Assembly: GCA_037043015.1 (NCBI GenBank)
Contig: CM073321.1
Coordinates: 42,428,420 to 42,492,419 of the forward strand
DNA from: Bryum argenteum
Taxonomy: Eukaryota; Streptophyta; Bryopsida; Bryales; Bryaceae
Direction of reading: 5' to 3'
DNA length: 64,000 nucleotides
The position numbers were made by a program, and so were the translations under genes. The notes beneath the pieces were generated by a model, which had not been told where the DNA came from, did no database searches, and was given only the letters and a program-made list of their open reading frames with translations. Positions 31,908-60,747 of this stretch are shown here, piece after piece. Every line of letters begins with the position of its first letter. Position 1 is the first letter of the stretch.

Positions 31908-31918
31908 CAGGGTTGTCA
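31908..31918 (+). repeat. hAT-like left terminus
   Basis: CAGGGTTGTCA, a typical hAT end. Its inverted partner is at 50850-50860, and a variant pair bounds the 340-bp MITE at 3728-4067. Confidence 0.65.
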
Positions 31919-32310
31919 GGACGACCGGACGAGGGGGCGACCGGTCGACCATGGTCCGGTCGTCCTCAGCCCCTAGGACCTGTCGGTGACATAACGGGTT
32001 TTTTAGAATTTACCAGGGGTAAATTACCGTCCGACCGGTGGCCGACCGCACCCCCGTCCGATCCTTTGACCAGCCGACCGCACCCCTGTCCGACCGTTTG
32101 ACCGGCCGACCGCACCCCCGTCCAACGCTTGGTCCGGCCGACCGGTGGTGGGACCGGCGTTCCCTAGGCCGACCGGTGTGCGGACCGGCGAGGTCGGCTG
32201 CCGACCGCTGTGGCGACCGGCGAGGTCGGCCTCCAACCGGGGTGACGACCGTCGAGGTCGGCCGCCGACCGGGGTGACGACCGGCGAGGTCGGCCGCCTA
32301 CGAAGGCCCG
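31912..32310. repeat. GC-rich CCGACCGG-type tract 1
   Basis: Repeated, variable words such as GGCCGACCG, GACCGGCGAGGTCGGC and CCGACCGCACCCCCGTCC. Apparent ORFs inside are translations of the repeat. The tract lies between the hAT-like terminus and the promoter of the transposase. Just after it, CGGTCAAATTTCAA is repeated about three times (32310-32355). Confidence 0.85.
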
Positions 32311-32369
32311 ACCGGTCAAATTTCAACGGTCAAATTTCAAATTTCAACAGTCAAATTCAGGGTTGAAGG

Positions 32370-32406
32370 TATATAAGAGAAGAGACACAAGGCCTCATTT
32401 CACTTC
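32370..32406 (+). promoter_or_regulatory. Putative core promoter of the hAT transposase
   Basis: TATATAAG at 32370, followed about 20 bases later by GCCTCATTTCACTTC. Nearly the same pair (TATA-like box, then GCTCATTTCCCTTCACT) occurs at 45.72 and 60.75 kb, each just after a GC-rich tract. Confidence 0.55.
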
Positions 32407-32575
32407 CGAATTGTGAATGCGACCCAAGGTCTCTGAGCTGCATAACTTTATGTTATGTGTCCGTTGCTTGGTACGTATTGAGTTCGGAAGTGCAGAGTTC
32501 GTTTACGAACTCTTGACATTTTTTCTACATATCTACTACCACGTTTGTTCATTTTGAGGTGTCTTACCTATCAAA

Positions 32576-35470
32576 ATGGCCAACAAATCATCCTCACCTT
32601 GGTTCACTGATGTTCATGAAGTACAAGGCCAACCTACCGCGACCCCAACGGTCCAATGCAATCTCTGTCATAAGGTTATGAGCAAAAGGCTAGAACGGCA
32701 GCTCAGTCACCTTGGCTATGAAGGCAAGCGTGGGGTCCGCCTTAATACAGTAACGCTTTGTCCAAAATTGAACACCCGAGTGATGGATTTATTTCGAAGA
32801 TGTGACGGGCGGTTCCCTCCACATAATGGAGAAATGAGCGGTGCACATTCAATCCCATCGTCATCAGAAGTTCCAAATGTTGGCACGCCAAGGTCCACTG
32901 GGGGAGACTCTTGCGTGGGATCCTCTCAAGCTACCCCTTCGATTCCATCAACACCTTTAGTTGGATCAATCTCCACCGTTCCTAACTTTGCGGGACAAGT
33001 GAGGGTTGGTGGGCATATCAGTAGGGCAATGAAACAATCTGTGATTGAAGATGGTTTTGCTGAAGCGGATAGGCGGGAACTAGACATACTTTGGGCAAAG
33101 TTTTTTTATGAAGCAAACGTACCGTTTGCTGTAGCACGGAATCCCGCCTTCAAGGAAGCTGTAATGAAAACTGCGTCTTTCCGAAAACCATATGTCCCTC
33201 CTTCTTACCATGACATTCGGACAAGGTTGCTGGGACAAGTAAAAAGTGATCTAGAAGGAAAACTAGATAGTAGACTCAAGGAGAGCCTTCGGAAGTTCGG
33301 GGGAACTTTAGCCATGGATGGATGGTCATCGTGAGTAGTCGTCGCCCTCTTGTGAATGCAATGCTAGTGACTCTATTTGGAGAGCTTTTTCTTGGCGCCC
33401 GTCGATACTCACGGCAAAGAAAAGAGAGAATGTATATGGCCTCTATCATGGTCAAGTTCATCAAACAAGTTGGCCCGAGAACGTTGTCCAAGTCCGCACG
33501 GACAACGCTTCGTAATGATTAATGCCTCTCGATTAGTCGTTGAGGATTATCCCCATATATTCATTCGAGTGCGCCAAGCATGCGATGGATTTGTTGTTGG
33601 AAGATTGGGGAAAGGCGTCATGGGTGAAAGAAACTTTGGAAAAGGCCAAGGGCTTGGTCAAGTTCATTAAAAATCGTCAAATGCCTTTAGCCGTGTTTCG
33701 TAAACACGAGACAAGGTTTAGCCTATTGATGCCAGGAAAACAAGATTTGCGTGCAATTTTATAATGATAGATCGCTTAATGCGGGTTCGGGAATCATTGG
33801 AGCAAATCGTTGTAGATCCCGGTGGTTGTCATATGCCACGAAGAAGTCTCTATCGCTAGAGATAAATTCTTCGGAGTCCCATAACGTAAGAAAAGTGGTT
33901 TTGGATGACGGTTTTCGGAGGCGTTGTACAAACTTCCGAGATATGGTGGCCCGATGAGTGTATGCTCTTCGGGAATTCGACGGCAAGGAGCCTTGTACGG
34001 GCAAGGCTTTGCATATCGTTCGTCACTCGAGAAGCATGTCGACGCTATCTCTGAACCATTTTCTCTCCCGACGGATTTAGCGGACATTGCGAAGGAGAAC
34101 TTTTACGCAAGGAAAAAGATGATGACAACAGATCTGCATTGTCTTTGGTGCACTTTTGAATCCTTATTTACTACATGACAAAGAGTTAGCGAGATGATAC
34201 CGAGGTCTGGCATGGGTGCAGGCGTGTTCTAAAAACTCTATGTGCTCCGGGCACTTATCATGATGTGGCAAATGAATATATGGCATTTCGAATGAGGAGT
34301 GCACCATTTCATGAGATGTTGGATCCTAATGAGTCGAAATGTTCTCCCTTTGTTTGGTGGGAAATTGAAGGGTTTGTTGGAAAACTCCTTGCTCCGATTG
34401 CAAAGCGAATCCTAGCACAAATAGTGTCATCGTCGGCGTGCGAACGCAATTGGAGCAGTTACTCTTTCGTTCACGATAGGAAGCGGAATCGGTTGCTACC
34501 GGAAAGGGCTGATGCCTTGGTCTTTGTATACACCAACTCAAAGTTACTTGCAAACGCAAAGTTAACGGATGAGAAGAGGTGGTACTCGGAGAACTTGCAT
34601 GTAGAGGATCGTGACGTACGTAACTCCGAGGATGAAGAAACCCCCCATAACTCAATTGGTGAAGGCCTTGCGGATCACGTTTTAGAGGACCTAGAAGATG
34701 ACCTCAATAGCATCCCCGCTATGAGCTTGCAAGATGCTTTGAACGTCCCGACCACCACGTATGACTTTGTTGACGATGATGCTGAGGCGGATGATCCAGA
34801 TGAATTGTTGCCCCTAGCTCATTTACCATGGTTTCAAAAGGATACCGACAAAGTCACTTGTGATAATACCCCTCGTACCGGACTAACTCCAAATACGGAC
34901 GAGAATGAGGTTCTGAATGAGAAAATCGTGGGGGATGATACACATGGCTGTACAGTAACGTTTGATCCAATCACGGGAAATATGACGTCCGCCACTAGGG
35001 ACGAACCTGCGTTTCCTACTGTTGCCTCTCGGTCTCTATTTCAAAAATGTGCTGTAGAGGTCCCTACAGTGATGGAGAAATCTTCCAAACGTTTGGTGTC
35101 CCTTTCAAATCAAGTGCGACCCCGAACACTACGTACCAATTCCGGCGGAATCTCTAGTGACTCGGATGTACCGCTTCTTCAATTGGGATACAAAAACCTT
35201 CCAGGAGGTTCAAGGCTACGGAAGAAGGAGCCTCCAAGAGTTATGACGAAACGTAAAGCTCCAATGCTTCCGTTTCTTCATGATAAACCGAAGAATCCCC
35301 TTGATGCCATTGAGAATGCGGGAAAATTCAAGATCATTCATCCGGGAAGTCACAAACGAAGAATCAAACAAGAAGTTAGTACCGATTTTGAAAATGACCC
35401 TACGGGATCTAGCGGAGCTGAAGTCAAAGGAGACAACAATTACGCAATTCCCACCAATGTGGATGAATAG
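32576..35470 (+). pseudogene. hAT transposase with BED finger and DUF659-type core
   Basis: ATG 32576 opens MANKSSSPWFTDVHEVQ. A BED-type finger follows: QCNLCHKVMSKRLERQLSHL. After a Ser/Pro linker comes ELDILWAKFFYEANVPFAVA with KPYVPPSYHDIRTRLLGQV and GGTLAMDGWSS, the hallmark start of the DUF659/hAT core. The frame then shifts near 33325 (RRPLVNAMLV), with further shifts to about 34180. From 34265 a long frame carries the C-terminal dimerisation domain (APIAKRILAQIVSSSACERN, WSSYSFVHDRKRNRLLPERA) and an unusually long acidic-then-basic tail of about 300 residues, ending at 35470. hAT transposases move elements with 8-bp duplications. The central part has several frameshifts, so this copy is inactive. 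It faces the RING and coiled-coil genes on the other strand. Confidence 0.88.
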
Positions 35471-35786
35471 AAATTAATTACATGCTCAGACACGTATTAG
35501 AGGTCAAGCATACTTCGTGTATGTTTCGGATAGTATAGCTCGTGAAACTTTATTACCAAACAGTTGATGTCTTCGTACTTTATTTTGTCTGAAAATGTTG
35601 GTGAATAGTCAACAAAAGACTATTACATCATAAGAAATAAAAAACTTCATTACAAAAACCATGCATTACAAATCCAAAATGGTACGCGACTCTATTCCGG
35701 GAACTATAACCGTTCTAAACCGTCTACGCTTCTATTGGATTTCTATTACATCGCAACTGAATGCTCTTCTGTATCAATCGTATGTG
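35471..35786. other. Convergent intergenic spacer
   Basis: AT-rich gap between the ends of the hAT transposase and the RING ORF, which point at each other. It probably contains both 3' untranslated regions. Confidence 0.5.
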
Positions 35787-37417
35787 CTATACTACGAGTC
35801 CGGGGTCTTTGGCTTTAGCAATTCTACCGCCCTCGTCGTATTCTTGATCCACTGCAACAATTTCTCTGTTGTTGCCCGACATCCAACTCTCATCGCTCTC
35901 ATTGCCATCATCCCTTTTCCGTTTCTTGGGTGGGTTAGCATTTTTGGAACGGAAGATTTTCATGGCCTCCTCGATTCGTCCCACCACATCCTTCACAAAG
36001 GAGTCCTCTGCCGTGATAGACACCAATAACACCGGCTTGGGGCCTTGATCATTGTCGTCCAATGAGTAATGATGTTCTTAATGCGCCACTCAAATTTCTC
36101 TACCGCCTCCCAGAAAGTACAGTCTGCGTCTTTGAAAGATTCCTCCTTCGTTGAAATCTGTAAGTGTGCGGCCTCTTCCAATTTCGCTAGGACTAAAATC
36201 CTTCCAATCGGGCTATCATCGTACTTCTTGTACTCCTCTTCAAACTCAATGTCACTTGTTACCTCATGCCACAAACCATCTTCTCCCTTCTCCACTCTCT
36301 TTGGAGGGAATCGGAAACGATTGTGTTCGGTACTCCAATGTCCTCCAAAGTTGCGGCAAAACATCTCTCGTTGCTCGCTGTCTTCAATATCTCGCGCCCT
36401 AATCTCCACCTCGTAGTCACGTGTCATCCAAAGAAATGGATCTGTCTCGCCTACATACTGCTTGAGGAGCTGGTGTTTTGATGTTGAACTATCCCATTCA
36501 AGTGCTTTCCCCCACTCACGAAAGTTGTGAAGTTTCTTTGGAAGTTGATCCAAAGGGAGATTCCATCGGTTGAACTCGTGCCCAGGTGGCATGACATCGC
36601 GCATCCCCATCACTTCGTAGAATCTCGTGCTAATTGGAGAACGACATATAGGACATGATGATTTTCCCCGGGCAGCGCTTGCTATGCAAGTAACATGAAA
36701 GTTATGGCCACATTGGCCCAGTGTGTACGCTCCTTCTGGACCGAAATGATATCGGCACATGCCACATTTTTCCTTCAGTATTGTCGGGGGGGGGGGGTCG
36801 TTTGTGTAAACTATATTTCGATTTGATTCCACAAAATGCGATGAGAATGAGTTGTATGGCACCCATCCTTCTGCCACTTCCAAACTCCAATCAAAATCAT
36901 CATCTTTTCCCATCCGATTGAAATTTGTTCGCTCCATCATCTCCTCCACATCACCCCAAATAGTGACCTTAGTAGGTTCGTGTTCTCGTAATCTTTCGTA
37001 TTTTTTAAATTCCTCCAATGATGTATTCACATGTTCACTCGAACCATATGATTTGGCGGCGATCTTCTTCAGATCATGTTGTGCCTTTGAAACCATGGCC
37101 TCCCTATCTTGTAGTCGGTGAACCCAAGCCAACCAAGGCAATATGTTCTCTTCGCGTGGTGTATCCACATTTCTTAATGCCATTCGTATGGATTCTAGTT
37201 CAGCTCGTGCCTCATCTCTCTGCTTCATCATTGCCTCCAATTGCATTTCCAATGTTTCTTTAGGACATTGATTATGTAGGCAAGCTTTTCCCTTCGAATG
37301 TGTATCATCCCCTACACGCACGCCTCTCCTTCCATTGTCCTCCGATTCCGTATCATCTTCCAAATTGATGATTTGTTTTCCTTTATCCTCGCGTATTGAA
37401 CCGTACTTCCTTCTCAT
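35787..37417 (-). pseudogene. RING-H2 protein with coiled coil, one late frameshift
   Basis: ATG 37417 gives MRRKYGSIREDKGKQII, an acidic head, a coiled coil (LEAMMKQRDEARAELESIRM), and at residues 218-258 a RING-H2 finger. The ligands are C218, C221, C236, H238, H241, C244, C255 and C258 (CGMC ... QCGHNFHVTC ... CPIC). The rest has conserved Trp/charged blocks of no known family. Near 36050 the frame ends early; in the next frame PKPVLLVSITAEDSFVKDVV, an NLS-like PPKKRKRD and an acidic tail continue to 35787. RING-H2 proteins are usually E3 ubiquitin ligases. A run of 12 G at 36786-36797 encodes prolines and is prone to slippage. It lies downstream of, and on the same strand as, the coiled-coil gene at 37628, with possible read-through or fusion. 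It is carried inside a hAT-like element. Confidence 0.72.
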
Positions 37418-37627
37418 GAATGTCCTCTCTTTGTCTCGTAGGGCCCAGGCTCGCGTGATGGAGTACCTTTCATCTCCGGGCCATCACTCTTATTATTCCC
37501 ATCATAATTAGACGGGGAAAAGATCACCTTCCCTTTCGATCCTTTCTTCAATTTTTGAAATTGGAGAAATATCTTTGGGTTTAGGGAAGATCTTCCACAT
37601 CACCTTCTTCGGGAGCATTCAAAATGT

Positions 37628-39019
37628 TCATCGCTTCCTCCATGAGTTTGCGATGAGTACGGATTTTCTGCGCTCATATCCATTAAGTTTGAAATCATAA
37701 ACCACCTTTTCAATCACGGCAATTGCTACGGAATACTTCGCCTCAAGACTACAAATATCCTCCAAATCCTTTATCCTTGATTTCATAAGCGGGAGAAATT
37801 TCTCGATAACTTCTCGTAGTCTATAGTCTGCGTCTAGCATTCGAGGCATCATTAGGGCAAAAGTTTGAGACATTTCTAAAAACTGTGGAGCCATAGCAGC
37901 AAGAACTTCAGTCCCGATTTTCATATCGGCCCCAACTTGCAATATTGAGGTTTTTTTGGTCTCTTCCCACTTCAACTTCGTCACACCATCCGGAGCCGAA
38001 TCCTCCCATATGATCTTCGCCATTTCTTCACAATAAGTGAGAAACTCTCTTAGTTTCTTGTTGCTTGGTACTCCTTCATATATCTCTTCGAAATTTGACA
38101 TCCAATCCTTCTTCATCAGCGGAGTAATGGAATCTGGCATGGATGTTGTTTCCATTCGTTTACTTGGCCCTGCCTCATTCGATTTTGGATTCGAGAAGGT
38201 CAAATTTAGGCCATTGGGAATAATAGGGTTATCTAGAATGAGAGGGGACAGTACCTCTTCCACTACATTCTCTAAGTCCCCCACCTGATCTTGCACTGCA
38301 TTCGCCTCTTCCAGTGACTGTTCTCCAACTGCTTTTACATCCCGAAGCCTATCAACTGAAGATTGTTCGTTTGATAGACCATCCGTGGCAAGAGGAATGT
38401 CTTTATCCTTTGTAACGACATTCTCATCATCTGTTGTATCCTCCACAGCCTTTGTTTTTTTTTTTTTCCTCAAAAGCTCCAAAATATGCTTTGTCAAGGC
38501 TGATTGTGGATCAAAGCAATCTGGGATATGCTTCTGCTTCCTCTCAATTCGAAGCAGATGTTGAGTATTAGTTTGGTACGTGCTCCAATTTATCTTCCGC
38601 TGCAGTATCTACTCAGCATACAGCATTGCCAACAATTGGTAACAAAAGTACCCTTTTGTTTTGGCACGATCCCCGAACAAGGCCCGCCATACTTCCTCTA
38701 CACGGTGGATAAAGTGATCATCCTTGCATGTTGTCGGGTTGCAAGAAAAGTTCTTGGTATGAACTGTATGACATTCTTTAGGCCAAAGTTTGCAAATGTG
38801 AAACATCTTCACATATTTCTTGCAAATTTGAGCGGTCCAATACTCCGTCACCTCCAGTTCCCAACCACGTTCCGCTTTAATGTCTTCATTCTCTAAAATC
38901 TCCCAATTCAGCCCATGAGTTGCACCTTTTTGTTTATTCCACTTCTTAGGCGCCTCTGCTGATATCATCGAATTCTCCACCTCCATACTCGTGTTCACGT
39001 TCTCAGTCGACGTCATCAT
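37628..39019 (-). pseudogene. Zinc-module (KKYVKM) coiled-coil protein, one in-frame TAG
   Basis: ATG 39019 gives MMTSTENVNTSMEVEN. The module reads QICKKYVKMFHICKLWPKEC, later TCKDDHF, matching C(A/T)MCKKYVKMxH...CxxxHF in the genes at 45.9 and 57.2 kb, although here the first Cys is lost. Then LLAMLYAE, a single in-frame TAG near 38607, and ILQRKINWSTYQ (the others have AEIVLHKNVNWST). After it comes a basic stretch (ELLRKKKKTKAVEDTTDDEN), a long acidic region, and a C-terminal helical domain (ADYRLREVIEKFLPLMKSRI) ending at 37628. I read the module as a BED-like zinc finger, so DNA binding is plausible, but that is inference. The reading frame is otherwise intact for over 450 codons. It could be a transposition accessory protein of the hAT-like element. 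Confidence 0.62.
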
Positions 39020-39162
39020 GCAAGTATCACCGAAAGATCCACGGGACGAAGTAGCCGCAACAAATGTGAAAAAAAACCGACCCCCTTCTCCTCTCCAACT
39101 AGAATGCAGCAGGCGCCTTAGCAACTGGAGAACATTCGAATTGGGTTACCATGAGGAGAGAA

Positions 39163-39197
39163 AGTGGTGCAAAATGAAGCCGGACGGCCCTTTATAG
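39163..39197 (-). promoter_or_regulatory. Putative core promoter of the zinc-module gene
   Basis: On the minus strand CTATAAAGGG (39197-39188) is followed by GGCTTCATTTTGCACCACTT, the local version of the TATA plus TCATTT(C)CCTTCAC arrangement. The GC-rich tract 39203-39486 lies just upstream. Confidence 0.5.
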
Positions 39198-39202
39198 TGC
39201 CC

Positions 39203-39486
39203 TCATGCCGGACCGGCCGACCGAACCGCCGACCGGGCCTGGCCGTCGGAAGCCCCGGACCGGCCAACCGATCGCAGGACCGGCCATCGGGCATTTCGGG
39301 ACCGGCCGACCGATCCCCCGGACCTGCCGACCGATCCCCCGGACCTGCCGACCGATCCCCCGGACCGGCCGTCGGGCCATTCGGGACCGGCCGACCGATC
39401 GCCCGGACCGCCCGAGCCTGGCCGACCGACCCTGACCGCCGAACCTTCGCACGCGGGGCCTGGCGGACCGGCCGCCGGCCGCCGCT
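39203..39486. repeat. GC-rich CCGACCGG-type tract 2
   Basis: Tandem words such as GGACCTGCCGACCGATCCCC (two adjacent copies, with a third variant) and GGGACCGGCCGACCGATC. It ends at CTAAACCCTAACCC (telomere-like). Positional mirror image of tract 1 around the hAT/RING gene pair. Confidence 0.85.
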
Positions 39487-42400
39487 CTAAACCCTAACCC
39501 AAAAATTTCTTGGGCCCGTTTACAAACCCTATGCATCAACCAATGATAATCTATCTCTCTCTAAAATTTTAAATTTGGGCCCTCGAAGTGGGCATTAGGA
39601 CTTTATATTGCAAGATCCACTCTATGACCCACTTTGTAAAGTAGAGCTAAAGTTAAGGCCCACTTTAAGTCCAAGTGGGCTCAACTCCAAATGGGCCCAA
39701 CTTCAAATGGCCTCTAATATAAAGTGGCCGTAAAAAGTGCCAAAACCCCTCAAAACCACCTTGTTATGAATTTCACTTCAATCTGAAAATGATGAAATTT
39801 CATAAATTCTCTTGTGTACTAATACATTATCATCTCGCAATCTATGAGGCTCTATGAATCAAACTTTTATCCACATGACTTACAATAGTATGTGTATTAG
39901 GGCATCCTCAATGGACACTAAATAAACGCCCTCTGTACCAAATTCTATCTTTTGAGTGATTGTGAATTAGAAAATACAATTACCATCGTTAGAAGCGCAT
40001 GTAAATAAACGTGAGATAGATCTCAAGAAAAAAGATATGTGGATAAAACTTTCTTCCCAAATTGAATAAACTTTCTCTACCAATTTGAAGTTTTTTTTTT
40101 TAGGTTTGTTTTAGGTTTTTTTTAAAAATTAGACCTAGTTGCATAAAAGTTCCTACTTAACCGTCTCCCTTGGAACGAATTTCTTATACTAATAGGATAA
40201 TTATAAACTGGTAATTAGTGTTCTTCAACAAGATAGATAGATAAGAATTCCAATTTTCATATCGAATATAACAATTGTATATAAATATAACCAAAGAACT
40301 CACAACAAAAAATAGTCCCTACCTTCTTACCCACGAGTTTATATATCCACCTAAAAGTCTTTCTATAGTCTTTTACTTTCCTATTTCTAAAAATAAATCT
40401 TATCAATAGATCAATTAGAGAAATCTAACTCTTCATGTATTTAAACTATTTATATTTAAAGTAGGATGTGTATATTTATGTATATACTATGTATTAATAA
40501 ATTAGAATATGCATATTTATGTATGTACTTTCTATTTTCAAAGTGGAATATGTATATGAAGGTATTTATTATATATAATATATATTATAATTGTATTGTA
40601 TTATGGTTGAATATATAATAAATATATTATTTACTATATACATGTATAGTATGTATATTTATCTATTTAATTTTTGAATTATAGTTCTAGCACACAAAGT
40701 AGAATTGATTTGCTTTACCTCTAAATATGTGTTTAAAGAGAACCACTATTTATATAGAACTAGTTTACCTCTGAATAAATTTTTAGCCTTAAATCGCTAT
40801 TTATGTAGAGTGACTTTACCTCTAACTATGTTTTTAGCGATAACCGCTATTTATGTAGAGTGACTTTACTTCTAAATATGTTTTTAGCGAAAACCGCTAT
40901 TTATGTAGAGTGACTTTACCTCTAAATATGTTTTTAGCAAAAACCGCTATTTATGTAGAGTGACTTTACCTCTAAATATGTTATTAGCAAAAACCGCTCT
41001 ATCTTTACCGTATAGTGTATATATATTATTTATTTAATTCTTTTCATTTCAGAGGGGACCCGAGTTCAGAACCAGCATCCGGGATGAGACTATAACATGT
41101 CCAATATATAATAAAGGAATTAGCCTACAAAGGTTTGTAAAATAATGTATTGGATATGGAAAAATAAAAAAATTAGCCAGGAAAAATTAATAAATCCTAG
41201 ACCATAAACCTTAAATCCTATCCACAAGTGATTTTATCCACAATATACTCTAAATGAAAAAGCGATGGCTATTCAAAATATTCTATTCTCTAAACAATCA
41301 ATCGAAGATTCTAATATAAGAATAATCAACTTCTTTTAACATAAAATTGAAGTACTATACGTGTACAAGATCAAATATGATTATAACTTTATAAGTTGAT
41401 GCCATTATTGCCATATGTTAAAAACTTATAGGGTGCGATATTTTCATAAATTTATTTGTAACGCTTTTTACTTCTCGTAATTTATGATCACAAAATAGAA
41501 AACAATAGAACTGTATTTCTATTACCTTTGTAAGAGGTAAATAAATAATTACTCAAATAAATACACTAAGAAAAATGCTACAAATAATTATTTAACGAGA
41601 ATATGTGCAAATTAAGTACAATTATATGTACTAGGATATAAATATACTCTTAGCATAGTTCAAGGCTGTCCAACAAAAATAGCCAATAATAGAATTAGTT
41701 GTTTAAGCACAATGTTTTTTAATAATAAGTACTACTAAATTAGATACACAACGATGAAGTTATTTCTAAATGCACATCAAATAATATAGACCATAAAATG
41801 TGGACAACTTAAGGGCTAAATAGGAAGTTTAAATATTGACTAATACGGTAATACCAAAGTTATGAAGACAAGATACTCACACATGCTCACCTACATTTAA
41901 TATATACTTAGATCTCTCCAATGTTAGACATAAGTATACTCTCATCAAGGAATAGCTAAAAGTCTCGAACGTGATATGAGAGGATTTAGGGCCACCTCAA
42001 AGTGCACAATAGGGGCCAAGCCATTAATGGGGCCAATACATGAGAACATCTCGTTGGAGAATGGATCAATTTTTGACAAAAGTTGGAACATTCAAGAAAT
42101 GAATGTCGATTCATGGCCTAAAAGCGTTTTCTTCATTCAAATTAAGAAGGAATATTTTTAAAAAATAAAATCAATGAGAACAAATCAAAAACATGGACTC
42201 TAGCTAATAATAAGAATTGGCCCCATAACCTTCGTTTTCCTTCTAGAAATGGGCACCAACTCCCAACACCTTCACAAATGGGGGAATTGGCATGGGAGAT
42301 ATGTTGGCCTTGACTCCTCTTGTAAAGAGTCCCTTATTATAGAATTATTTAGAGCCTAGAGTATCTTTGTCATAAAACATTCTTGTTTCTGACAAAGAGA

Positions 42401-42569
42401 TCTTCCCGACATTCCCTTGTCAGAACATTCCCTACCCTGATTTAGATGCCACGTGGACGAGAGACGCTAAATATAGAAATGCAAATATGCAATGCAGGGA
42501 AGTGAGAGAAGTTGTGGAAACGGGGAGTTTTGGGGAGAGGCAAGAAGAGGAGGGGGAAGGAGGTACGCG
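39487..42569. repeat. AT-rich non-coding arm, copy A
   Basis: No gene. TTTCACTTCAATCTGAAAAT at 39771, the minisatellite at 40.7-41.0 kb, and blocks at 41.2, 41.4, 41.6, 42.0, 42.3 and 42.44 kb recur in reverse order and orientation at 57.8-60.05 kb. An example is GATGCCACGTGG at 42447 against CCACGTGGCGTC at 58136. The arm ends on GC tract 3. The first block recurs at 43.03 kb (same orientation) and at 45.08 kb (inverted). Confidence 0.7.
40715..41010. repeat. 50-bp minisatellite, about six copies
   Basis: Unit boundaries at 40815, 40865, 40915 and 40965 are exactly 50 bp apart, with two more diverged units to the left. The unit contains TTTACCTCTAAATATGTTTT and CCGCTATTTATGTAGAGTGA. No open frame and no unique spacers. 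Confidence 0.9.
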
Positions 42570-42745
42570 GGCCGACCGGTCGGTCGCCAGGCCGACCGCA
42601 GGCCGCCCGGTCGGTCTCCGGGCCGGTCCCCGGTCGCTAGGCCGGTCCCCGGTCACCTGGTCGGTCGGTAGGCCGGTCATGCGGTCCCTCAGATCGGTCG
42701 GCCGGGCACGAGCGGCCCAGATTGACCGATCGTACATCACCATCG
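42570..42745. repeat. GC-rich CCGACCGG-type tract 3
   Basis: Words such as GGCCGACCGGTCGGTCGCC and CCGGTCCCCGGTC. Left neighbour GAGGCAAGAAGAGGAGGGGG matches the left side of the inverted tract 57.8-58.0 kb. The right neighbour (poly-T) matches the inverted tract 60.5-60.7 kb. No gene follows. Confidence 0.85.
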
Positions 42746-45419: not shown

Positions 45420-45735
45420 CCGACCGGGCGGGGGGACGACCGACCGCCTTGGAGGCCGGCGACCGCATCGGACGGCCAGCGACAGCCCACGCGACCCCGT
45501 CGGACGGCCGCCGTCGGATCCGTCGGCCGCAGTAAATCGGGCGGCCGCGATGGACCGGCCGGATCCGACGGCCGCGATGGATCTGTCGGCCGATTGGGCG
45601 GCCTGGATCGGTCGCCATTGCGGGCATCGGATTGGCCGACCGATGGCGGAATTCACCGCTGCCGACCGAGATCGGACGGCCGGGGCCAGCGGACGAATGC
45701 CGACCGGCCCCGATCGGCATAAATAGCCGACCGGG
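45420..45735. repeat. GC-rich CCGACCGG-type tract 4
   Basis: Repeated GGATCCGACGGCCGCGATGG-like words and GGCCGACCG. Preceded by an A-rich run (45395-45412) as at 60.5 kb. Long ORFs on both strands are repeat translation, not genes. Confidence 0.85.
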
Positions 45736-45753
45736 GGCTCATTTCCCTTCACT
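45718..45753 (+). promoter_or_regulatory. Putative core promoter of the zinc-module/GY-rich gene
   Basis: CATAAATAG at 45718 is followed by GCTCATTTCCCTTCACT at 45737-45753, identical over 17 bases to the segment at 60766-60782. A long poly-T (about 45838-45852) lies in the leader before ATG 45869. Confidence 0.55.
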
Positions 45754-45868
45754 CTGGTGTGCGCCCTGGTCATTTGTGGTTTTCCATGTCGATTGCGCTC
45801 TCGAGTCCCCTCTTGATAATCGACCCCATTTTTGCGTTTTTTTTTTTTTTTTCTTGTGGGTGAACAAT

Positions 45869-47405
45869 ATGCCGAGGAACGACGTACTAGTGCACCCAAG
45901 GGCAAGGCCCCGGAGATGGGAGGAAGCAATCGATGATCCAAATTGTGTCGCCGAAGATGGATGGGAAGATGAACGGCGAGAATTTGGAATTGCACCATGT
46001 GCAAGTGATATGTGAAGATGAAACACCTCATGAAGTTATGGCCAAGAAATCAAGCGATTATATCGGGGCCACGACGCGAAGGTCTAGCAGCCGTGATTTG
46101 CACAAGTCAACATTTCACGCCGATATCATGAAGTGACCATTGCCGTTGGAGTACGGAATACTAGGTCGGAAATCATGTTATATTCCAACATGGCTATGGT
46201 TTGGGCAGAAATCGTTCTACATAAGAACGTGAATTGGAGCACCGTGGCAGGTTTGAATGTTGCCGAATTGGATCGGAGCAATGATTTCATACCAACTAGT
46301 TGGCTTGGACCCAGTGATTGTATGCCCCTTTGGTCGAATCGGACATATACGGAGATGTCGGAAGTTCAAGATGAAGAAAGTACACCTCCAAGGAGATATG
46401 GAGGTCAAACTCGAATATCTCAAGATACACCTCCGAGGGGATACGAGGGTCAAACAGAACATCAACAATATACACCTCCGAGGGGATATGGGGGTCACAC
46501 AACAGATAATTATAATCGCAGCAATAACAGGGGTATGGCACCAATATCTTTTGGCATAGGAAGTGGTGGGTATTATCCCGGTAGCAATATATACGGTCCG
46601 GGAACCACTACTCTCCCCGAGACATATAGGGCGAGCATCCAAGGGATACGTACCAATCCGGAGGCCAACACGATACAAGTCCGAATGCTGGAGGAAGATA
46701 TATGCCAACATATCCTCGGGATACATACGAGTCAGGAGGCCGATACGGTGGAAGGAGTGCTCCGGAGAGCTATACGCCAACATATCCTCGGGAATCTAAC
46801 GATGTCCCCGACCAATATGGTAGAGGTACCAGTAGTCCAGAGTACCATATCCCAACACATCTAAGGGACACATACGAGTCTCGAGGCCAGTATGGGAGAG
46901 GACCTAACATTCGAGAAAGGTACCACAACGTATCCTCTTTGGATCATACGATGCTCACAACCAATACGGTAGAAGACCTGAGGTTCCAGATAGCTTTAGA
47001 CCAACGTATCCAAGAGATACGCATGATCATCACGGCGAGTACGGTAGAGCTATTACCAATCCCGAGTACCGTACTCCAAGTCAAGCAAGAGATGAATACG
47101 AGCCCAGTTGGAATTACCCGAACAAGGATCGTGAAGAGCATATCACTCAGTACCCATATCCTGGGTATGGCCAATATGCATATGGGAGTTACGACACACC
47201 CCCGCCACCATTCCGAACTTGTGAAGAAGAAGATGCAGAGTTTGAAAGACAACTACGAGAGGCAACAATTCAAAGTCAAGCGGAGTACATCCGCAAGCTT
47301 GAAAATGATCGTATTTACGACGAGCAGCGCTTGTATGATGCTTATTCGCGAGGGCGGTACTCAGACCAAGCAGGGCCAAGTGGAACACATGATGATAAGG
47401 ACTAG
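45869..47405 (+). pseudogene. Zinc-module/GY-rich repeat protein, copy 1
   Basis: ATG 45869 opens MPRNDVLVHPRARPRRWEE, then DDPNCVAEDGWEDERREF. In the next frame the module reads NCTMCK(stop)YVKMKHLMKLWPR ... CTSQHF. It is followed by EVTIAVGVRNTRSEIMLYSN and MAMVWAEIVLHKNVNWS. Then come low-complexity repeats: TPPRGYGGQT-type units (46.38-46.5 kb) and YPRDTYESGGQYGRG-type units over 46.6-47.1 kb, spread over two frames. The C-terminus (47.12-47.4 kb) has YPYPGYGQYAYGSYDTPPPP and a charged coil (EEDAEFERQLREATIQSQAE), stopping at 47403. At least three frameshifts and the stop inside the module break it. Gly/Tyr/Arg-rich tails are known in RNA-binding and condensate-forming proteins; function here is unknown. 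It converges with the kinase-like gene. Confidence 0.62.
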
Positions 47406-48613
47406 GATGCAAAGTAATTACATTTACATATAGGCATGTTGTAATGTACTGTACGTACATGTAGTATTTGGATGAGAACTCTATTCTCCATATGGTAGAG
47501 GTCATTTTCTAAGACCTTCTTAACCATGTTTTGTTGGTAAACGGACATCATATGAATGATATAAGGAATGTAGGACCATGACCTATATTACACATTTATT
47601 TGAGTAAATATGTTATCATTCCATTCATTAACCACTAAGAATTTTAGTGTTTTTGGAAGCTTGAAAGTTGAAACCTCCTGCTCAAAACTACGATTTCCTA
47701 CGTCTATGTACTCTCGGAGTATGTACGAATTATTTTTATCTATTTAATACATTCAACCGTAAGATCGTGAACCGAAGCCTATTAGAAGTTACTATTTTAA
47801 AAAGTGACCTTAGGATGTTTATCATTTGCGAGATCCTAACATCCAAATTTTGTTTAAAACTTTATTTGGGATTTGCACCGGAGGCAGTGTCTCCACGGTG
47901 CAAAGGGGGAGTTGGAGATTGCTACCAACAAAATTTTGGTCATATTTTTTCCCATGTATGTAATCAAGTGTAGTAAATTCATGCAAAATTTGGGAGCCTC
48001 ATTCCTCTTGATTGACATTCATGCAAGCTATTTTCTAAAAGCAGGTCCGAAAACAATACTATAGTAAAACATGCACGTCGTTACGTATATTTCGTATTAT
48101 AAAGAACTTAAAGTGGGTTATGTGAGTGTAGGAGTTTGTGATTTTTGAGGTAACTTATTTCTAAAAGTTTTCCATAATCTAAAGTTTTGACAAATTTAAA
48201 TATATATAATTCATAATTTACTAATACATTTTGAGCTTGTGTTGGTAATTTCTGGAGGCTGCCACTGTAAAATTGGTAAATATTATGACTTAAATATTTT
48301 TGGAATTTCAGTAGTGATTGGCTTATAAACATATGAGAAGAAAAATAGAAGATAAATCGCTAATTTTGAATTACCCAACCAACACTTAAAAATTGAATCA
48401 ATAGGTTTTTTTGGGCTTTACCCTAAAGGCCTCATCCAAATGGTGCAAAGGGGCAAAATATTATAATAAACATAAGTGTACTTGGTGGGCCAAAATTTGA
48501 AAGGCATGCATCACATTTGAAACAAAGAGTATTGTTGGAGTGAAAATAGAACATGCATACTAATTCATAAACTATAATAAAACCGATATGTGTAAAACAA
48601 ATTCTACGTTTTC
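47406..48613. other. Convergent spacer between zinc-module and kinase-like genes
   Basis: AT-rich. Two related phrases ending GGTGCAAAGGGG(C/G) lie at about 47890 and 48455. No gene. It presumably holds the two 3' untranslated regions. Confidence 0.5.
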
Positions 48614-50098
48614 CTATTCGTAATTCGTCCGAAAATGCTCATGAGGCGTGGGCCAATGAAACATTTCGCTAAAGCGTGAGATGATATGGGACAACCCTCC
48701 AGCGCCGTCACGGCTCTCGTTGCATACTCTATCCATGTAAAGATGGAAAGCTTGTGCAAGGTCTTCATTGGAGAATACCGAAGTATTTCGGTTTCCACGT
48801 TGCAAGCTCTCGTACGCCGTAGACATGGTCATCCCAGTAATTCTTTGAGCTATGCGGTCCGTGGCAAACTCCTCCGAAGCAATCGAGTATTTTGGAATAA
48901 TCTGTAAATCCTCACCCGCTTTGTACAAGAACGCCACTCGTGGATATACCCAATAACGTTTTCGCAGGGTCTCCACGATGTCCTCACGTTTTGTGAATGT
49001 ATAAAGGGATTGCATTGGTTCCTGAACCGTTGTGGAAAAGCCCCAATCGCATACTCCGATATACACTCGTGATTCATCAGCAGGGAAGTGGAGAAGGATA
49101 CTATCTGGAGATATATCGTTATGGAGGTGGTGGCTCTTGTGGACCTCGTTCATGATATGCAACAACGCCCAAGCAAGCTCTGTCCGTTTTTTACGGAATT
49201 GAATCAGTTGATGAGCCCAAATAATCTCGTCATCGGGGTAATTCCCAAAGTTCAAATGTACAAAGATATCGTCACCATAATCCATATCGCGGTTCAGCAT
49301 CTCTCGAATAGTCCCGCCATTCCACCAAAACGCATAGCCTTGATTCTTCACTGGATGAATGGCCACAAAGCGGATCACACCAGGGTGTCTAATCCTTATC
49401 GCCATAGACTCATTCATATCCTCCAATTTTGCCAACTCCGGTCGTGTCAACAAGTGAATGGAAGTTTTTACAGCAAATTCCCAAAATGGTTCAATGCTTG
49501 CAACACCTTCAAAGCGAACTTTGATAATAGTACCATACCGTCCCTTCAACCTTGTGTTGTCAACTCGTATGATTTCGGCTGTATCCGGAATGGTAACCAA
49601 ATGAGTCAATCGCATGGTTTGAGTTTGTCGTCCCTCAATGGATTGCCACCATGTTCCAGAGCCTCGACGGTGTGAATTCTTTGAAAATGCCCTCATTTGG
49701 GCAGAAAAACAATCAGCCCTATTCACCACGTCAACAAAATCCTCATCACCCTTCCAGAACATCCTTCCATATTTGGCTATTACAACCTTGGGATTCCAGA
49801 GTGCATCGTTCACCCTATTATCCATCCACCACATGAACCCCCGCTTCTCTGTCTCTGCTACCCACCTCGGATGCTGAAGCACTTCTATCATGAGTTCTCT
49901 AATTTCGAGCTTGAACTTCTCGATGCCCTCCTCCTGATATCTCACATATTTGCTTTCCAATGCTCGATGATCATTGGCCTCATAGAATTTGACGGTAAAT
50001 TCTATCAATACCTTACAAGCGTCACCCCGGACCTCATGAGCCTCGAACTTCTCAAACAAGTTGGCTACACCAGCCTTCTTGTTCTTCTCCTTTGGCAT
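48614..50098 (-). CDS. Protein-kinase-like protein carried by a hAT-like element
   Basis: An uninterrupted 494-residue frame from ATG 50098. Residues 1-170 are a charged N-terminal domain of unknown family (FMWWMDNRVNDALWNPKVVI). The kinase-like domain follows: glycine loop GRYGTIIKV (186-194), AVK with Lys211, a helix with Glu candidates near 221-230, and a catalytic loop LHNDISPDSILLHF. In that loop HRD is HND (Asp328 kept) and the usual Asn is Ser. The DFG equivalent is DWG (351-353) after YIGVC. The C-terminus ends HWPTPHEHFRTNYE. This is the only long, unbroken gene among the cargo, suggesting recent function or selection. Loss of the catalytic-loop Asn and the altered HRD/DFG suggest weak or no kinase activity, perhaps a pseudokinase. 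A fragment of a second copy lies at 54896-55044. Confidence 0.72.
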   Translation of the reverse strand: MPKEKNKKAGVANLFEKFEAHEVRGDACKVLIEFTVKFYEANDHRALESKYVRYQEEGIEKFKLEIRELMIEVLQHPRWVAETEKRGFMWWMDNRVNDALWNPKVVIAKYGRMFWKGDEDFVDVVNRADCFSAQMRAFSKNSHRRGSGTWWQSIEGRQTQTMRLTHLVTIPDTAEIIRVDNTRLKGRYGTIIKVRFEGVASIEPFWEFAVKTSIHLLTRPELAKLEDMNESMAIRIRHPGVIRFVAIHPVKNQGYAFWWNGGTIREMLNRDMDYGDDIFVHLNFGNYPDDEIIWAHQLIQFRKKRTELAWALLHIMNEVHKSHHLHNDISPDSILLHFPADESRVYIGVCDWGFSTTVQEPMQSLYTFTKREDIVETLRKRYWVYPRVAFLYKAGEDLQIIPKYSIASEEFATDRIAQRITGMTMSTAYESLQRGNRNTSVFSNEDLAQAFHLYMDRVCNESRDGAGGLSHIISRFSEMFHWPTPHEHFRTNYE

Positions 50099-50299
50099 CT
50101 TGATCCCAGAAAAGGAAATATGTAAAGAAAGTGTAGTAAGTTTTTACAAAAACTTTTCAAAAAAAAACAACAAAAACTCCCCCTGTATAATGAGTCACTT
50201 CCTTCCTCCAAAAGACAAGGAGCCAGTGGACAGGAATTACAAGAATTCCTAGCCAGAGACACTCCGCATCCTCTCTTCGTGAGAAATGGAGAAAAGAAG

Positions 50300-50665
50300 T
50301 GGAGGAAATGGAGGCCGGTCGGCCTGGATCCGACGGCCGATGCATCGCCTGGCCGACCGATCGGACGGCCCGCCTGGATGGCCGACGGCCGATCCGTCTG
50401 GCCAACTGATCGGTCGGCCGCGCCCGGATCCGATGGCCGTCGGGCATGCGGCTGGCCCGCCCGCCTGGCCGACCGATCCGATCGATCGGACGGCCCGACC
50501 GCCTGGCCGACCGATCGGTCGGCCGCGCCCGGATCCGATGGCCGTCGGGCATGCGGACGGCGGCCCGATCCAACGGCCCGCAAGCGCTTACAAATGATCC
50601 GACGGCGAGGATTTGCTGCCGTCGGCCGCCGTCCGATCTGACGGAGCGACCGAAGGTTGGTCGGC
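50300..50665. repeat. GC-rich CCGACCGG-type tract 5
   Basis: A 75-bp block beginning CGGTCGGCCGCGCCCGGATC is duplicated (about 50411 and 50514). It lies upstream (minus strand) of the kinase-like gene and inside the right hAT-like terminus. Palindromic words (AGTCCGGACT, CCATGGTCCGG) follow to 50820. Long ORFs inside are not genes. Confidence 0.85.
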
Positions 50666-50849
50666 TAGACCGGGGATCAAATTTTGACGGCTGAGATGTG
50701 GCCAGGTGGATGATCCAACGGCCCCAGAAGTTACCAGGGACCGGGGTAACTCGCATTTACCCTCCCGGACCATGGTCCGGACTATGGTCCCAGTCGACAT
50801 AGTCCGGACTACGTCCGCGGACTAGATTTACCCCGAATGTCGACCGATT

Positions 50850-50860
50850 TGACAACCCTG
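50850..50860 (-). repeat. hAT-like right terminus
   Basis: TGACAACCCTG, the exact inverse of the first 11 bases at 31908. Directly followed by LTR sequence of a gypsy element, so the element appears to have inserted into that LTR. Confidence 0.62.
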
Positions 50861-51009: not shown

Positions 51010-52016
51010 TTTTGGCAACCATGCTAGGGAGGGTATGCTGAGGTAAATAAGGAACCGCGGAAAGGATACCTCACGTAACACACAAGCAAAATGCCCGTGA
51101 AATGAAATGTCGCGGATAATGCTGCGAGAAATGCCGCAGACCGAGCCGCGAGCGTAGAAGAAATTGCACAAGGAGATGTGATCAAAGAATTCTTGCAATG
51201 GATGAAAGAGCAGATAACAAATTTGGCTGTAAAGAATGATGCAACAAATGCGAAGCTGAAATTGCTTAGCATTCAATATTAGAACCTCTAAGGCCATTGA
51301 CAACCTGAGGTGATTGCTTCCACGCCACATACCGCGGGAGAACGCGTAGAGGCTATAAGGTCTATCACAATACTTCGAGAAAATCACACGGTGACCCATC
51401 AAATACCTCGGAATTACCAGCACCATCACCAACAGTAGCGTCCATAATAGCACCTACTGTAACTCACGGCCCCGAAAACCTCAAGGTTTATACCAAGTTA
51501 TTCAAGATACCATATCTCGTCTTTGACGAGTCTGGTGATCCAGACTGGCACGTCACACGTTTTAAGGTTATTGCCTGGACGAATAATCTCCCCGAGGAAA
51601 AATATATGTGTGAGTGGTTTAACAAGACTCCTTCCATGGATACAACATGGTATTGTTATCTTGGGAGTCAAGACGTCGCCAGACATACTTTCCACGGCCA
51701 ACGACATTAGCTGTGAACTGACCGCCTTGAGACAAACCCAAGCGCCATTGTTGTCCTATCTTACAGTAAGGCAAGACGCAAGGGTGACACCCCCACTCTA
51801 TGGAATTTGTGGGAAACCACACCATGGCCGATGTTAATTCCCTACAAATATTTCCCCGTCCCAAGATAATAGGCGCCCACGAAACACCACGGCAACATCA
51901 TACCAAGGAAGTAGACGTGGATGCGTTCAAACCAGGACACAGTGATGCATGCTGGGAATGCGGAGCTTTATATCAGAGAGGGGGCCAGTGTCCAGTACTA
52001 AAACAGAAGTGGGCTT
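51010..52016 (+). pseudogene. Ty3/gypsy gag remnant related to the 11-13 kb copy
   Basis: After stop-ridden leader sequence (51165-51300), the frame near 51490-51615 reads KIPYLVFDESGDPDWHVTRF, matching the 13-kb copy but with Trp where that copy has a stop. It continues with ANDISCELTALRQTQ, GICGKPHHGRC and CWECGALYQRGGQC, a zinc knuckle whose His is replaced. The capsid region between CEWF and the knuckles is shortened, and coding ends at 52016 before the protease. Confidence 0.75.
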
Positions 52017-54455: not shown

Positions 54456-54859
54456 TTTAGAGTAGTTGATTCATAGTTGTTAGAGAAAAGCACAAACATT
54501 ACTAATTAGACATGCATTTATTCTTGTTTGTATTGTGAGTTTAGGTGTTATGATGGCATCTCTGAGTAAGGAGTGTGGAGTAGAATGGTTGTGAAGGTAT
54601 GTCTATCTCCTTCCTTTCCTTTTCTTTGTTTTTTGCTTGTAAGCGCGGTAGGAAGTTGAAGCAAATGGTGATTACAACCCTGAAGTAAAGTTTTTAGCAA
54701 CCTAACACTTAAACAAAGATGAGAGTATACACACAAACCAATAATGAAGATTACGAAAAAAATTCAGCACTCAATCTTCAAGAATAGTACCTCGGAAGTC
54801 TAATGTTGTCGGCGTTGCCATATGAGGGCTGAAATTTTAGGGTTTTGATCTTAATACTA
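54456..54859. repeat. About 404-bp dispersed repeat, copy 2
   Basis: Matches 6871-7279. Here it is followed within about 40 bp by the 3' end of a kinase-like gene. Confidence 0.8.
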
Positions 54860-54895
54860 ATGAGAATTTGCAACATACAACAGGGCCGAACTGTT

Positions 54896-55044
54896 GGTCA
54901 AATCAAGACTTTGCAAATACTTTTGACAAATACTTGGAGACGGTGGAAGACAAAGGGTTTACGTTGACCTACTTTGTCAACCGATTCATAGAATCACAGC
55001 ATTGGCCGGTGTCCAATGAGCATTTTTGAACCAAGTACGAATAG
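54896..55044 (+). pseudogene. C-terminal fragment of a second kinase-like gene
   Basis: The frame reads NQDFANTFDKYLETVEDKG, then FVNRFIESQHWPVSNEHF, a TGA, and TKYE followed by TAG. This aligns with the end of the 48.6-50.1 kb protein (NEDLAQAFHLYMDRV ... FHWPTPHEHFRTNYE), including HW.....EHF and T.YE. All of the kinase core is missing, replaced on the left by the dispersed repeat. It converges with the zinc-module gene at 56.1-57.2 kb, the same arrangement as the intact pair but inverted. Confidence 0.72.
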
Positions 55045-56082
55045 TAAATGAGTACTGCACATTTGTTGTAGTTCTTGCAGCTTTATTAGCTTTTTAGATT
55101 GTTTATCGAAGTCCTAATGTAGATGTAGGCAATTTTTTGGAGTCAAATATATTACATGCCTTCTATATGTAGGTACTTCAAGTACATACTTGTTTTTATA
55201 TACCTTGCAATGAATGACTTCCTTTCCATTGTGTGATATTTTGGTATGTAGATTAACCTATGGTTTGATTAATTAGAAGTATCTAGTTTTTTCCTTTTTA
55301 GTAACTTCTCTTCTATAATTTTTGTAGAACAAATTCAAAATAGGTGCATGGCTTCCCAATTGTATTGCACAAAATCATTTCTGACAATACTTACAACAAT
55401 GTTGTTAATTTTTCATTAGTGTTAAAGCCATAAAAGTTTCTGATTTACATCTCATCAGCGCAACATTTACCCAATTCCAAAGATTTACCCAGCTTAATAC
55501 CTTCAATAAATATATTTTTAAACCTTGACCACCAATATCGGAGAATATATATTGAACTATGATACTTCTTTATTATATCTACCTCGCGTAGTTGTGTTAT
55601 TAATGGTTTCTCCAAAGTCAAATCACGCATAATATGACTTTTCTTACATATGGGGGTTTTTGTGTACATTAATGAACTTAGCATATGTTAGGACCGTGAA
55701 AAGAGGCTTAAAGCCAAACAAAGGAAATTATCACCGCCATGTGCACTCATAGTAAAAATACAAGAAATCCTGATAAAATCCCTTGATATTATCAAATTGC
55801 ATAATATATTAATATATGATATGGTCATACATTTGAATTATCCATTCATAAACAAAATATGGATTTCAAGATCTTCAAAATTGGCTCCTAGCAAGGCGAA
55901 AAAGAATTTAGGCTTCATCCGTTGCAAAAAACTACAAAACCTTTACTATAATGGCACTATGTATGATAATACAGTCATTTTTCACTTGAGTCTATATCAT
56001 CATGTTTACGACTTGGTGGAGCGCTATGTGTACATGGTACTTGAGAAGATTCTCCAAAGAAGTTTGTTTGCCTAAAGTTGCT
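55045..56082. other. Convergent spacer, no gene
   Basis: AT-rich 3' flank between the kinase fragment and the zinc-module gene, the counterpart of 47.4-48.6 kb. Confidence 0.5.
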
Positions 56083-57181
56083 TTAACCTTCAAGTTGTTC
56101 AATGTATTCCTGCTGACTGCGTAGACTCGCTTGTTGCACATCTCGTTCGAATTGCGCCTCTTCTTCCTCACGAGATAGGAAAGGTGTTGAAAGTATGTCG
56201 TTACTCCCGTATGCAGTTTGACCATATCTTTAATTTGTATAGTCAAAAATATCTTATCTTCTATCATATTGGCCTCCATACTCGTATTTATCCTTCGGGT
56301 GTAATGGCCTAGAGTATTCGGGACTTCCGAATGTTGTATCGTATTCGTTCTCACAATTGTATGGGTTTATAGCATGAGTTGAGCTTGAGTTGCCTTGAAC
56401 ATTGGATCCGCTACTCTGCCCACCTCGTAAACCATGTGTACCTCCTGTATACATTGGAGATGGGTAGTTTGAACTATACCCACGTCTACCGTATTTGCGT
56501 TCAACTCCGTACGTATGTCGCTAATGGGGTGGCATATAACTCACAAGAGTACCAAATTGGTGGTTACCATGGTAATACCCCTCACTTCCTGTGCCAAAGG
56601 ATACTGGTGCCTGACGACCGTCATGGTTTGTACCTTGGGTAGTGCCTCCCATATCTCCTTGGAGTTCCATGTTGTTGAAGTTGGGCATCCATATCAGTTG
56701 AACGTTCTGAAGAGCATGTATAACAACTTCTTGGTCCCATCCAATTCGTTGGTATGAATCGGTTGCTGCGATCCAATAAATGCACGTTCAAACCTATCAC
56801 AGTAGTTTAGTCAATATCCTTGTGAAGAACTATTTCAGCCCAAACCATCGCCATGGTAGAAAACAACATCAGCTTTGGCCTTGTGTTCTTCATTCCAAGC
56901 TCAATTGTGATTTCATGATATTGGTACGCAAAATGGTTGCTTTTGCAAGTCTTTACTAAGCCTTCACGTCGAGGACCATGTCTCCATGCTTTCATTATAT
57001 GATGCATCTTCACATACTTTTTGCACATGGCGCAATTCCAAATCTTTGCCCTCTCCTCTAGCCAACCTAGCTCTGCAACGTAGTTTGGGTCACTCCATGC
57101 TTTCCAATCCATTTTTGCAGGATTGCCCTTTGGTTGTAAACAATTGGAATCGCCCTTCAGTCGTGAAAACTTGGGCGCCAT
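56083..57181 (-). pseudogene. Zinc-module/GY-rich repeat protein, copy 2
   Basis: ATG 57181 gives MAPKFSRLKGDSNCLQPK, then DWKAWSDPNYVAELGW. The complete module follows: CAMCKKYVKMHHIMKAW ... TCKSNHF, then EITIELGMKNTRPKLMLFS, MAMVWAEIVLHKDID. Near 56810 a stop or shift occurs. The frames then give LNVHLLDRSNRFIPTNWMGP, GY-rich pieces (GDTHGLRGG-like, YEYGGQYDRR near 56260) and the C-terminus YGQTAYGSNDILSTPFLSRE with DVQQASLRSQQEYIEQLEG, stopping at 56083. It is homologous along its length to the 45.9-47.4 kb gene but with a shorter repeat region. Frameshifts break it. The intact module here is the best guide to the motif: C-x2-C-KKYVKM-x-H, then about 20-30 residues, then C-x3-H-F. Confidence 0.68.
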
Positions 57182-57814
57182 TCTCAGCAGCGAGAAGGTA
57201 GCACAGCGTGGACGCGGGTGTCCCACGAGGATCCTGAGGGACGCAATCGACAAAGCTTTAAGAAAAGCGACAACGTCCAGCCTGTTAACCAAATATTCTC
57301 CGAATATTCCCTTAGGCTAAGTTTGACTAGTCGACACCTAGTCGATAGTCGTCCCGATCGATATCCGGTTGATATCTGGTAGAGAGTGCAAGAAATAGGC
57401 AGGTTCATACTCGACCTAAGCAGCCGACCAGTCAGCCGACACTGCAGGTCGGCTGACTGGGTCAACCCGACCAGATCGGGCAGACCGGGTCTGACACAGT
57501 GTCAAACTTGGGACTGTATGTACCCCCTTCTCGAGTAGAAGGGTGTTGCTCTTCATTTCATATTATGTTTGTCTCCTTCTCTCAAGCAGCCGCCTCTTGT
57601 TTTTTGGTATTTGTTTGTAGTCGACTTCATCCTATGTCACATGAGTCTGTTCGATTTCAGCTATTGTAGCAATATGAGGTTATGAGTGAATGAGATACTC
57701 AGTAGTGGTAATACTCAGTCATATACTCCTTCCTATTGTCGACTCGTTTTTTACTTTCTATGCAATCCTGTGTATTTAGGGATACAAATTTTGTATCGCC
57801 TCAAACAAATTGTA
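57182..57814. other. 5' flank of zinc-module copy 2, with a perfect hairpin
   Basis: 57428-57440 (CCAGTCAGCCGAC) and 57448-57460 (GTCGGCTGACTGG) form a perfect 13-bp stem with a 7-base loop. Around it are CCGACC-type words and, at 57496, CAGTGTCAAACTTGG, possibly a hAT-type terminus without a found partner. No TATA box is evident. Confidence 0.5.
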
Positions 57815-60735: not shown

Positions 60736-60747
60736 GGAATTTTTGAT

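Follow-up and report, generated by a model that had tools for sequence, protein, structure and literature searches.

Introduction

Autonomous hAT transposons are usually small and carry one gene. A second element gene besides the transposase is present in MuDR and En/Spm, but these belong to other superfamilies and have smaller gene sets, and VANDAL elements are of the Mutator type and not hAT. Here we analyse a 64,000-bp stretch of the genome of the moss Bryum argenteum (G000:C1:42,428,420-42,492,419, called the window hereafter) and describe in it a hAT-type DNA transposon of 18,953 bp with four genes (31908..50860, forward strand); the searches covered 259 Mb of genome. An initial annotation had divided this region into small units, with a hAT transposase facing a zinc-module open reading frame (ORF) and a RING-H2 ORF in unit 1, a zinc-module/GY-rich ORF facing a kinase-like gene in unit 2, and the pair of unit 2, inverted and truncated, in unit 3.

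Among the systems described so far, terminal inverted repeats of hAT elements are given as 5-27 bp in PMC12506042, and the moss element lies within this range with 11 bp. Gulliver, with 7,144 bp, has the longest consensus in a survey of plant hATs, and the portion of its text consulted reports no moss hAT (PMC6027215). In fungi, the 14-kb cargo-bearing ToxhAT/ToxTA was filed as a hAT and then reclassified by its TA duplication as a likely non-autonomous Tc1/Mariner element (PMC12506042). Also, VANC proteins bind short motifs that are dense in the non-coding parts of their own elements, according to the excerpts of PMC5735166 and PMC10398659.

Results

Units 1 and 2 are halves of one element

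The element is bounded by an exact 11-bp repeat, CAGGGTTGTCA, at 31908..31918 on the forward strand and at 50850..50860 on the reverse strand, and the hAT-like ends of the initial annotation were thus recovered at 31908 and 50860. Exact CAGGGTTGTCA sites number 148+165 genome-wide as against 24+25 for the reversed control, so they are not due to chance. For the spacing analysis 100 of these 313 sites were listed and adjacent sites were paired. A spacing of 17-21 kb was found in 15 of 33 '+-' pairs, one of them being the window pair 31,908 / 50,860, and in 0/32 '-+', 0/13 '++' and 0/20 '--' pairs, while shuffling the strands of the listed sites gave on average 3.7 and at most 9 such facing pairs. 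We fetched 10 of the 14 other pairs listed with this spacing and aligned them to the window element. All 10 are colinear with it end to end, with 92.7-97.1% identity over aligned columns, although some have inner deletions, L011/L012 for instance one of ~1 kb and L015/L016 one of 0.9 kb. Of the 10, 8 have a perfect 8-bp target duplication, which was also seen in the C9 copy, picked for its open kinase and RING frames. No exact terminal end was found between unit 1 and unit 2. Because the fetched copies are colinear across both units and most of them have target duplications, units 1 and 2 are two halves of a single hAT element and not separate units as had been annotated. These results support repeated amplification of the element and past transposition.

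Overall, 9 of the 12 copies examined of this family (family A) have an 8-bp duplication, the window copy and two others being without. The flanks of the window copy read CCGAGTAC / AGTAAAAC with no 8-bp duplication, and no shared neighbour was found that would give them a common origin (8 matches on the left; 40 scored of 59 on the right). Exact 11-bp terminal inverted repeats are present in the window copy, in C9, in B2 of a second family and in the derivative L037, the last two being described below. It may be added that a second CAGGGTTGTCA end with a different subterminal sequence occurs at L017:501-511, 1.2 kb outside a family-A copy; judged by this sequence it probably belongs to a further hAT family.

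The four genes

The gene order is fixed as hAT transposase, zinc module with RING-H2 (zinc-RING), zinc module with GY-rich part (zinc-GY) and kinase-fold protein, two of the four genes having a zinc module in common. The transposase gene (32576..35470, + strand; DUF659 and Dimer_Tnp_hAT) is broken in the window copy, but an open frame of 972 residues exists in copy L019/L020. Its protein P0001 matches PF05699 (1e-06) and PF04937 (1.1e-36), both over the curated cut-off. In an alignment of 18 sequences D315 is invariant and D254 and E631 are kept in at least 90%, and we take these positions to be the catalytic D, D, E motifs. The zinc-RING gene (35993..39019, - strand) has a KKYVKM zinc module, a coil and a RING-H2 domain, and is interrupted by a stop and a frameshift in the window copy. 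In C9 a single frame of 1,122 residues covers both zinc module and RING-H2, and the division into a zinc ORF and a distinct RING ORF was therefore rejected. The RING-H2 profile PF13639 matches at residues 793-835 (9.9e-08, above the gathering score). The zinc-GY gene (45869..47405, + strand) also has a broken frame in the window copy; its module reads KRYVKM in C9.

The kinase-fold gene (48614..50098, - strand) is open in the window copy, with its ATG at 50098. The conserved Lys, HxD, Asn and DFG-equivalent Asp of eukaryotic kinases are present in the element kinase: K226, D343 and D366 are invariant in an alignment of 31 sequences and N348 is near-invariant, although Ser replaces this Asn in the window copy. 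Tested for its three-dimensional structure, the protein agreed with the kinase fold. For the zinc module no match was found among 17 chains, its model being of low confidence. No NCBIfam model exceeded its cut-off for the four proteins, the kinase having only two weak kinase-type matches far below it, and Rfam at the gathering threshold gave zero matches in the window. The transposase pieces, KKYVKM module and RING-H2 reported for unit 1 were borne out by sequence and profile matches, and so was the zinc-module/GY-rich gene facing a kinase-like gene in unit 2.

A second family and purifying selection

Two further loci, B1 and B2, were reached through relatives of the kinase with ~54% identity. 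B2 is 17,364 bp long, has CAGGGATGTCA ends, is flanked on each side by the duplication TTCATCGC and carries the four genes in unchanged order. For B1 no ends were recovered with the terminal pattern. Genome-wide, CAGGGATGTCA has 290+326 sites against 51+51 for the control. Families A (~18.3 kb) and B (~17.4 kb) have gene order, orientation and end type in common, and the element is thus a giant multigene hAT transposon with at least two old families and four genes in common order. The ratio of nonsynonymous to synonymous substitution rates (dN/dS) between A and B is 0.27 for the kinase, 0.28 and 0.31 for zinc-RING, 0.19, 0.32 and 0.36 for pieces of the transposase and 0.08 for zinc-GY; these values are rough because dS is 1.07 to 3.8, i.e. 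near saturation. We read values of 0.08-0.36 as a sign that, between the families, each of the four genes was under purifying selection. Within families the kinase ratio is 0.63 (B1-B2) and 0.48 (window-C9), as expected from decay after insertion.

The element kinase is 92% identical to a protein of another assembly and 77% identical to the hypothetical protein M758_3G001500 of Ceratodon purpureus, which by this likeness probably belongs to a transposon and not to the host. Relatives of the kinase and of the transposase in other assemblies lie on contigs of one and the same length, 27,639, and those of transposase and zinc-RING on contigs of length 8,444, which suggests a single contig in each case.

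Genome-wide linkage of the genes

We scored 84 kinase matches of 1,107 candidates, 86 RING matches of 855 and 150 zinc-module matches of 1,245 (84 of the 89 listed for the kinase, 86 of 89 for RING, second pieces of the same gene being dropped, and 150 of 151 for zinc). Within 25 kb of 33 of the 84 scored kinase matches there is a RING match that has the expected order and lies on the strand of the kinase. The wrong order occurred for 0 of them and the opposite strand for 3, and the random mean was 0.54, for which contig extents were partly assumed. A zinc module faces 47 of the 84 at a distance of 1.8-3.8 kb, both controls being 0. Also, 19 of the 24 C1 kinase matches with at least 77% identity lie just inside an exact terminal repeat. 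The remaining 37 kinases without a scored zinc partner neither show nor exclude unlinked genes, because only part of the candidates was scored. The co-occurrence that the initial annotation proposed to look for was therefore found, the genes being linked and convergent at many sites of the genome, between hAT ends that have 8-bp duplications.

GC tracts and the spacer

Segments with GC of at least 60% were defined as GC tracts, and five of them lie at equal relative places in the window copy, C9 and B2. In the window these are tract 1 at the left end, upstream of the transposase (31908..32307; 7 CGGTCGGC and 7 GGCCGACC), tract 2 upstream of zinc-RING (39108..39507; 7 and 4, respectively), tract 3, an orphan in the spacer (42508..42807; 3 and 3), tract 4 upstream of zinc-GY (45408..45807; 5 and 1) and tract 5 upstream of the kinase at the right end (50308..50807; 6 and 6). 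The GC-rich CCGACCGG tracts that had been reported for the outer sides are thus present, but they are not only outer, four standing before genes and one in the spacer. CGGTCGGC occurs in every tract of the window copy and of C9, with 3-7 copies per tract in the former and 2-10 in the latter, against 0.04-0.20 in shuffles of the same tracts. Outside the tracts there are 0 copies in the window element and 1 in C9, and the left flank of the window element, 31.9 kb long, contains 0 GGCCGACC and 2 CGGTCGGC. In B2, three of the five tracts have CGGTCGGC (2, 3 and 7 copies). Given such dense arrays before genes, a DNA-binding role of the zinc module is plausible.

The AT-rich spacer (39508..45407) shows no conserved long ORF, and its blocks are 77-87% identical between A and B. 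Long blocks have 77-82% identity by BLAST, with short or repeated pieces down to 70%, and gapped local alignment gives 84-87%. As third codon positions differ by 43-55% between the families, the spacer is more alike than these. No codon phase was seen in the A-B alignment of the spacer, nor strong structure in fold energies set against 12 shuffles each (A, -226 vs -214 with standard deviation 10; B, -216 vs -216 with standard deviation 17). The simplest reading of this likeness would be exchange between the families, with constraint as the alternative. The orphan tract at 42508-42807 adjoins non-coding blocks alike in A and B, and is a possible promoter of a transcript.

Unit 3 and a non-autonomous derivative

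Unit 3 (54862..60867, - strand) is an inverted fragment of a third, mosaic lineage with a kinase tail, zinc-GY gene, spacer and zinc-RING start. The initial annotation was right about its inversion and truncation, but the fragment reaches ~60,867 and of the kinase has only about the last 60 codons. Its zinc-GY gene is nearer to B (80-82%) than to A (66-67%), whereas its spacer is nearer to A (80-84%) than to B (76%), and this mosaicism suggests recombination between element families. No correctly oriented end was found in 51,000-62,500, the only site with at most one mismatch (54,672-54,682) facing the wrong way.

L037 (201-7550) is a non-autonomous derivative of 7,350 bp with a perfect ACCCCAAC duplication. 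It has in common with family A a left end of ~400 bp and a right end of ~540 bp, as well as a weak 65% spacer match, and no match to the four element genes was found in it. Only two open frames of at least 150 residues exist, both over the right GC tract, and motif copies are present in both terminal tracts. Among the 33 facing end pairs from the 100 listed sites, 5 are spaced 5-9 kb, so the L037 type, of which one was fetched, may be a family.

Other elements in the window

At 20007-22241 (+ strand) there is a SET-domain ORF (PF00856, 2.5e-9), 1.2 kb upstream of a CACTA-type tnp2 fragment (PF02992, 1.4e-27), and this histone-methyltransferase-like gene may be carried by, or adjoin, a CACTA element. 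A Ty3/gypsy-type RNase H with a weak gag zinc-knuckle match occurs at 26324-28748 (- strand).

Discussion

Possible mechanism and rival explanations

The transposase is likely to excise and insert the element and also to mobilise end-bearing derivatives, as is established for the superfamily. We infer that the three other genes are element functions and not random captured host DNA. The two zinc-module proteins, one with a GY-rich tail and the other with a RING-H2 domain of the ubiquitin-ligase type, would recognise the GGCCGACC/CGGTCGGC arrays before genes and at the ends. The RING-H2 protein could clear a bound repressor of the host or hold the transposase in check, and the kinase may modify one or other of the two zinc-module proteins or a host silencing factor. 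Together these proteins would keep promoters and ends accessible, much as VANC does for VANDAL by means of other proteins. Because the tract layout resembles the VANC motif arrays we favour this account of a four-gene hAT with accessory proteins of a regulatory or anti-silencing role, though by a narrow balance of probability. Two observations weigh against it: the left-end and spacer tracts of B2 have neither GGCCGACC nor CGGTCGGC, and L037 has 12 further CGGTCGGC outside its terminal tracts. Because of these our confidence was lowered slightly, both here and for two readings that also depend on the motif. The bolder of these, which we hold only tentatively and consider rather unlikely, is an ancient giant-hAT lineage of mosses in which the two zinc-module paralogues, the RING-type and the GY-rich protein, would read a private motif code lying before the genes and at the ends and, with the kinase, disarm host silencing, the spacer being exchanged between families. 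The other, possible but doubtful, takes the zinc-module proteins as parts of the transpososome that bind the end arrays for pairing, while kinase and RING tune transposition and not silencing. A comparable part in end pairing is ascribed to the second protein of En/Spm. Family A does have arrays at both ends, L037 keeps both terminal tracts with the motif, and the four genes are conserved together in A and B, all of which would fit; against this, of the five tracts three lie inside the element (before zinc-RING, before zinc-GY and in the spacer), and the missing 8-mers at the left end of B2 as well as the additional motif copies of L037 tell against end pairing too.

It is also conceivable that the kinase and RING genes are captured host genes of no use to the element or kept for host benefit, as both are common plant domains and plant DNA elements are known to take up genes (Pack-TYPE). 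The 37 kinase matches lacking a scored zinc partner would agree with this, but they say little when only part of the candidates was scored, whereas the same genes in the same order recur in families whose kinases differ at ~46% of positions, all four genes have dN/dS of 0.08-0.36 and the zinc module is common to two of them. We therefore regard capture as improbable. Least of all do the data leave room for the separate small units of the initial annotation, in which unit 1 would mobilise units 2-3 as non-autonomous passengers. The pairs are indeed convergent, part of unit 2 recurs in unit 3 and a derivative sharing the ends exists, yet unit 2 forms the element's right half, all 10 fetched copies hold both units with no exact end between them, and unit 3 is a truncated mosaic without usable, correctly oriented ends. 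The colinear copies with target duplications refute this division for units 1-2, and L037 is a different derivative, so the passenger proposal was rejected and scarcely any probability remains for it.

Comparison with known systems

We know of no kinase or RING-zinc gene in MuDR or En/Spm. In a review of giant transposons the words hAT and kinase are absent from the main text (PMC6431247), hAT is absent from the searched text of a Physcomitrium transposon paper (PMC7466625), and neither hAT nor 'DNA transposon' occurs in that of the Pohlia genome paper (PMC9247546). The literature searched, which did not cover the Ceratodon genome paper, gave no description of a four-gene hAT set, and the initial annotation had likewise named no family with this gene set. 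That paper reportedly mentions cut-and-paste elements of a group not described before, and there might be some overlap with ours. A Pack-TYPE assignment does not apply, as the element encodes a transposase of its own and its gene set is conserved from one family to the other. From ToxhAT the moss element differs by its 8-bp duplications and by encoding a hAT transposase itself.

The closest systems are plant hAT elements (Ac/Ds type and Gulliver of Chlamydomonas) and VANDAL of Arabidopsis. With the former the moss element shares the 8-bp duplication and a transposase with DUF659 and hAT dimerisation domains, and its short inverted repeat fits the plant hAT pattern [T/C]AGNGNNG, as given in the sections consulted of PMC6027215; but it is 17-19 kb long with four genes. 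By all features tested it is thus a hAT, but one of giant size with four genes, and a repeatedly amplified hAT of this length with four selected genes would take the superfamily beyond the size and gene complexity known for it. Since a moss 'hypothetical protein' such as M758_3G001500 is probably a transposon gene, annotation of such proteins calls for care. With VANDAL (VANA/VANB/VANC) it shares a transposase with accessory genes and dense non-coding motif arrays that are rare elsewhere, such arrays being found in 5/5 tracts of family A (window copy and C9) and 3/5 of B2. The VANDAL literature compared, as excerpted, mentions no kinase or RING (PMC5735166; PMC10398659), and sequence-specific anti-silencing is proposed for the moss element by analogy with VANDAL. 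The element offers a compact test of transposon kinases and RING proteins acting against host control, and if the private motif code were true, it would be the first anti-silencing system known to us that joins sequence-specific targeting, ubiquitination and phosphorylation in one transposon.

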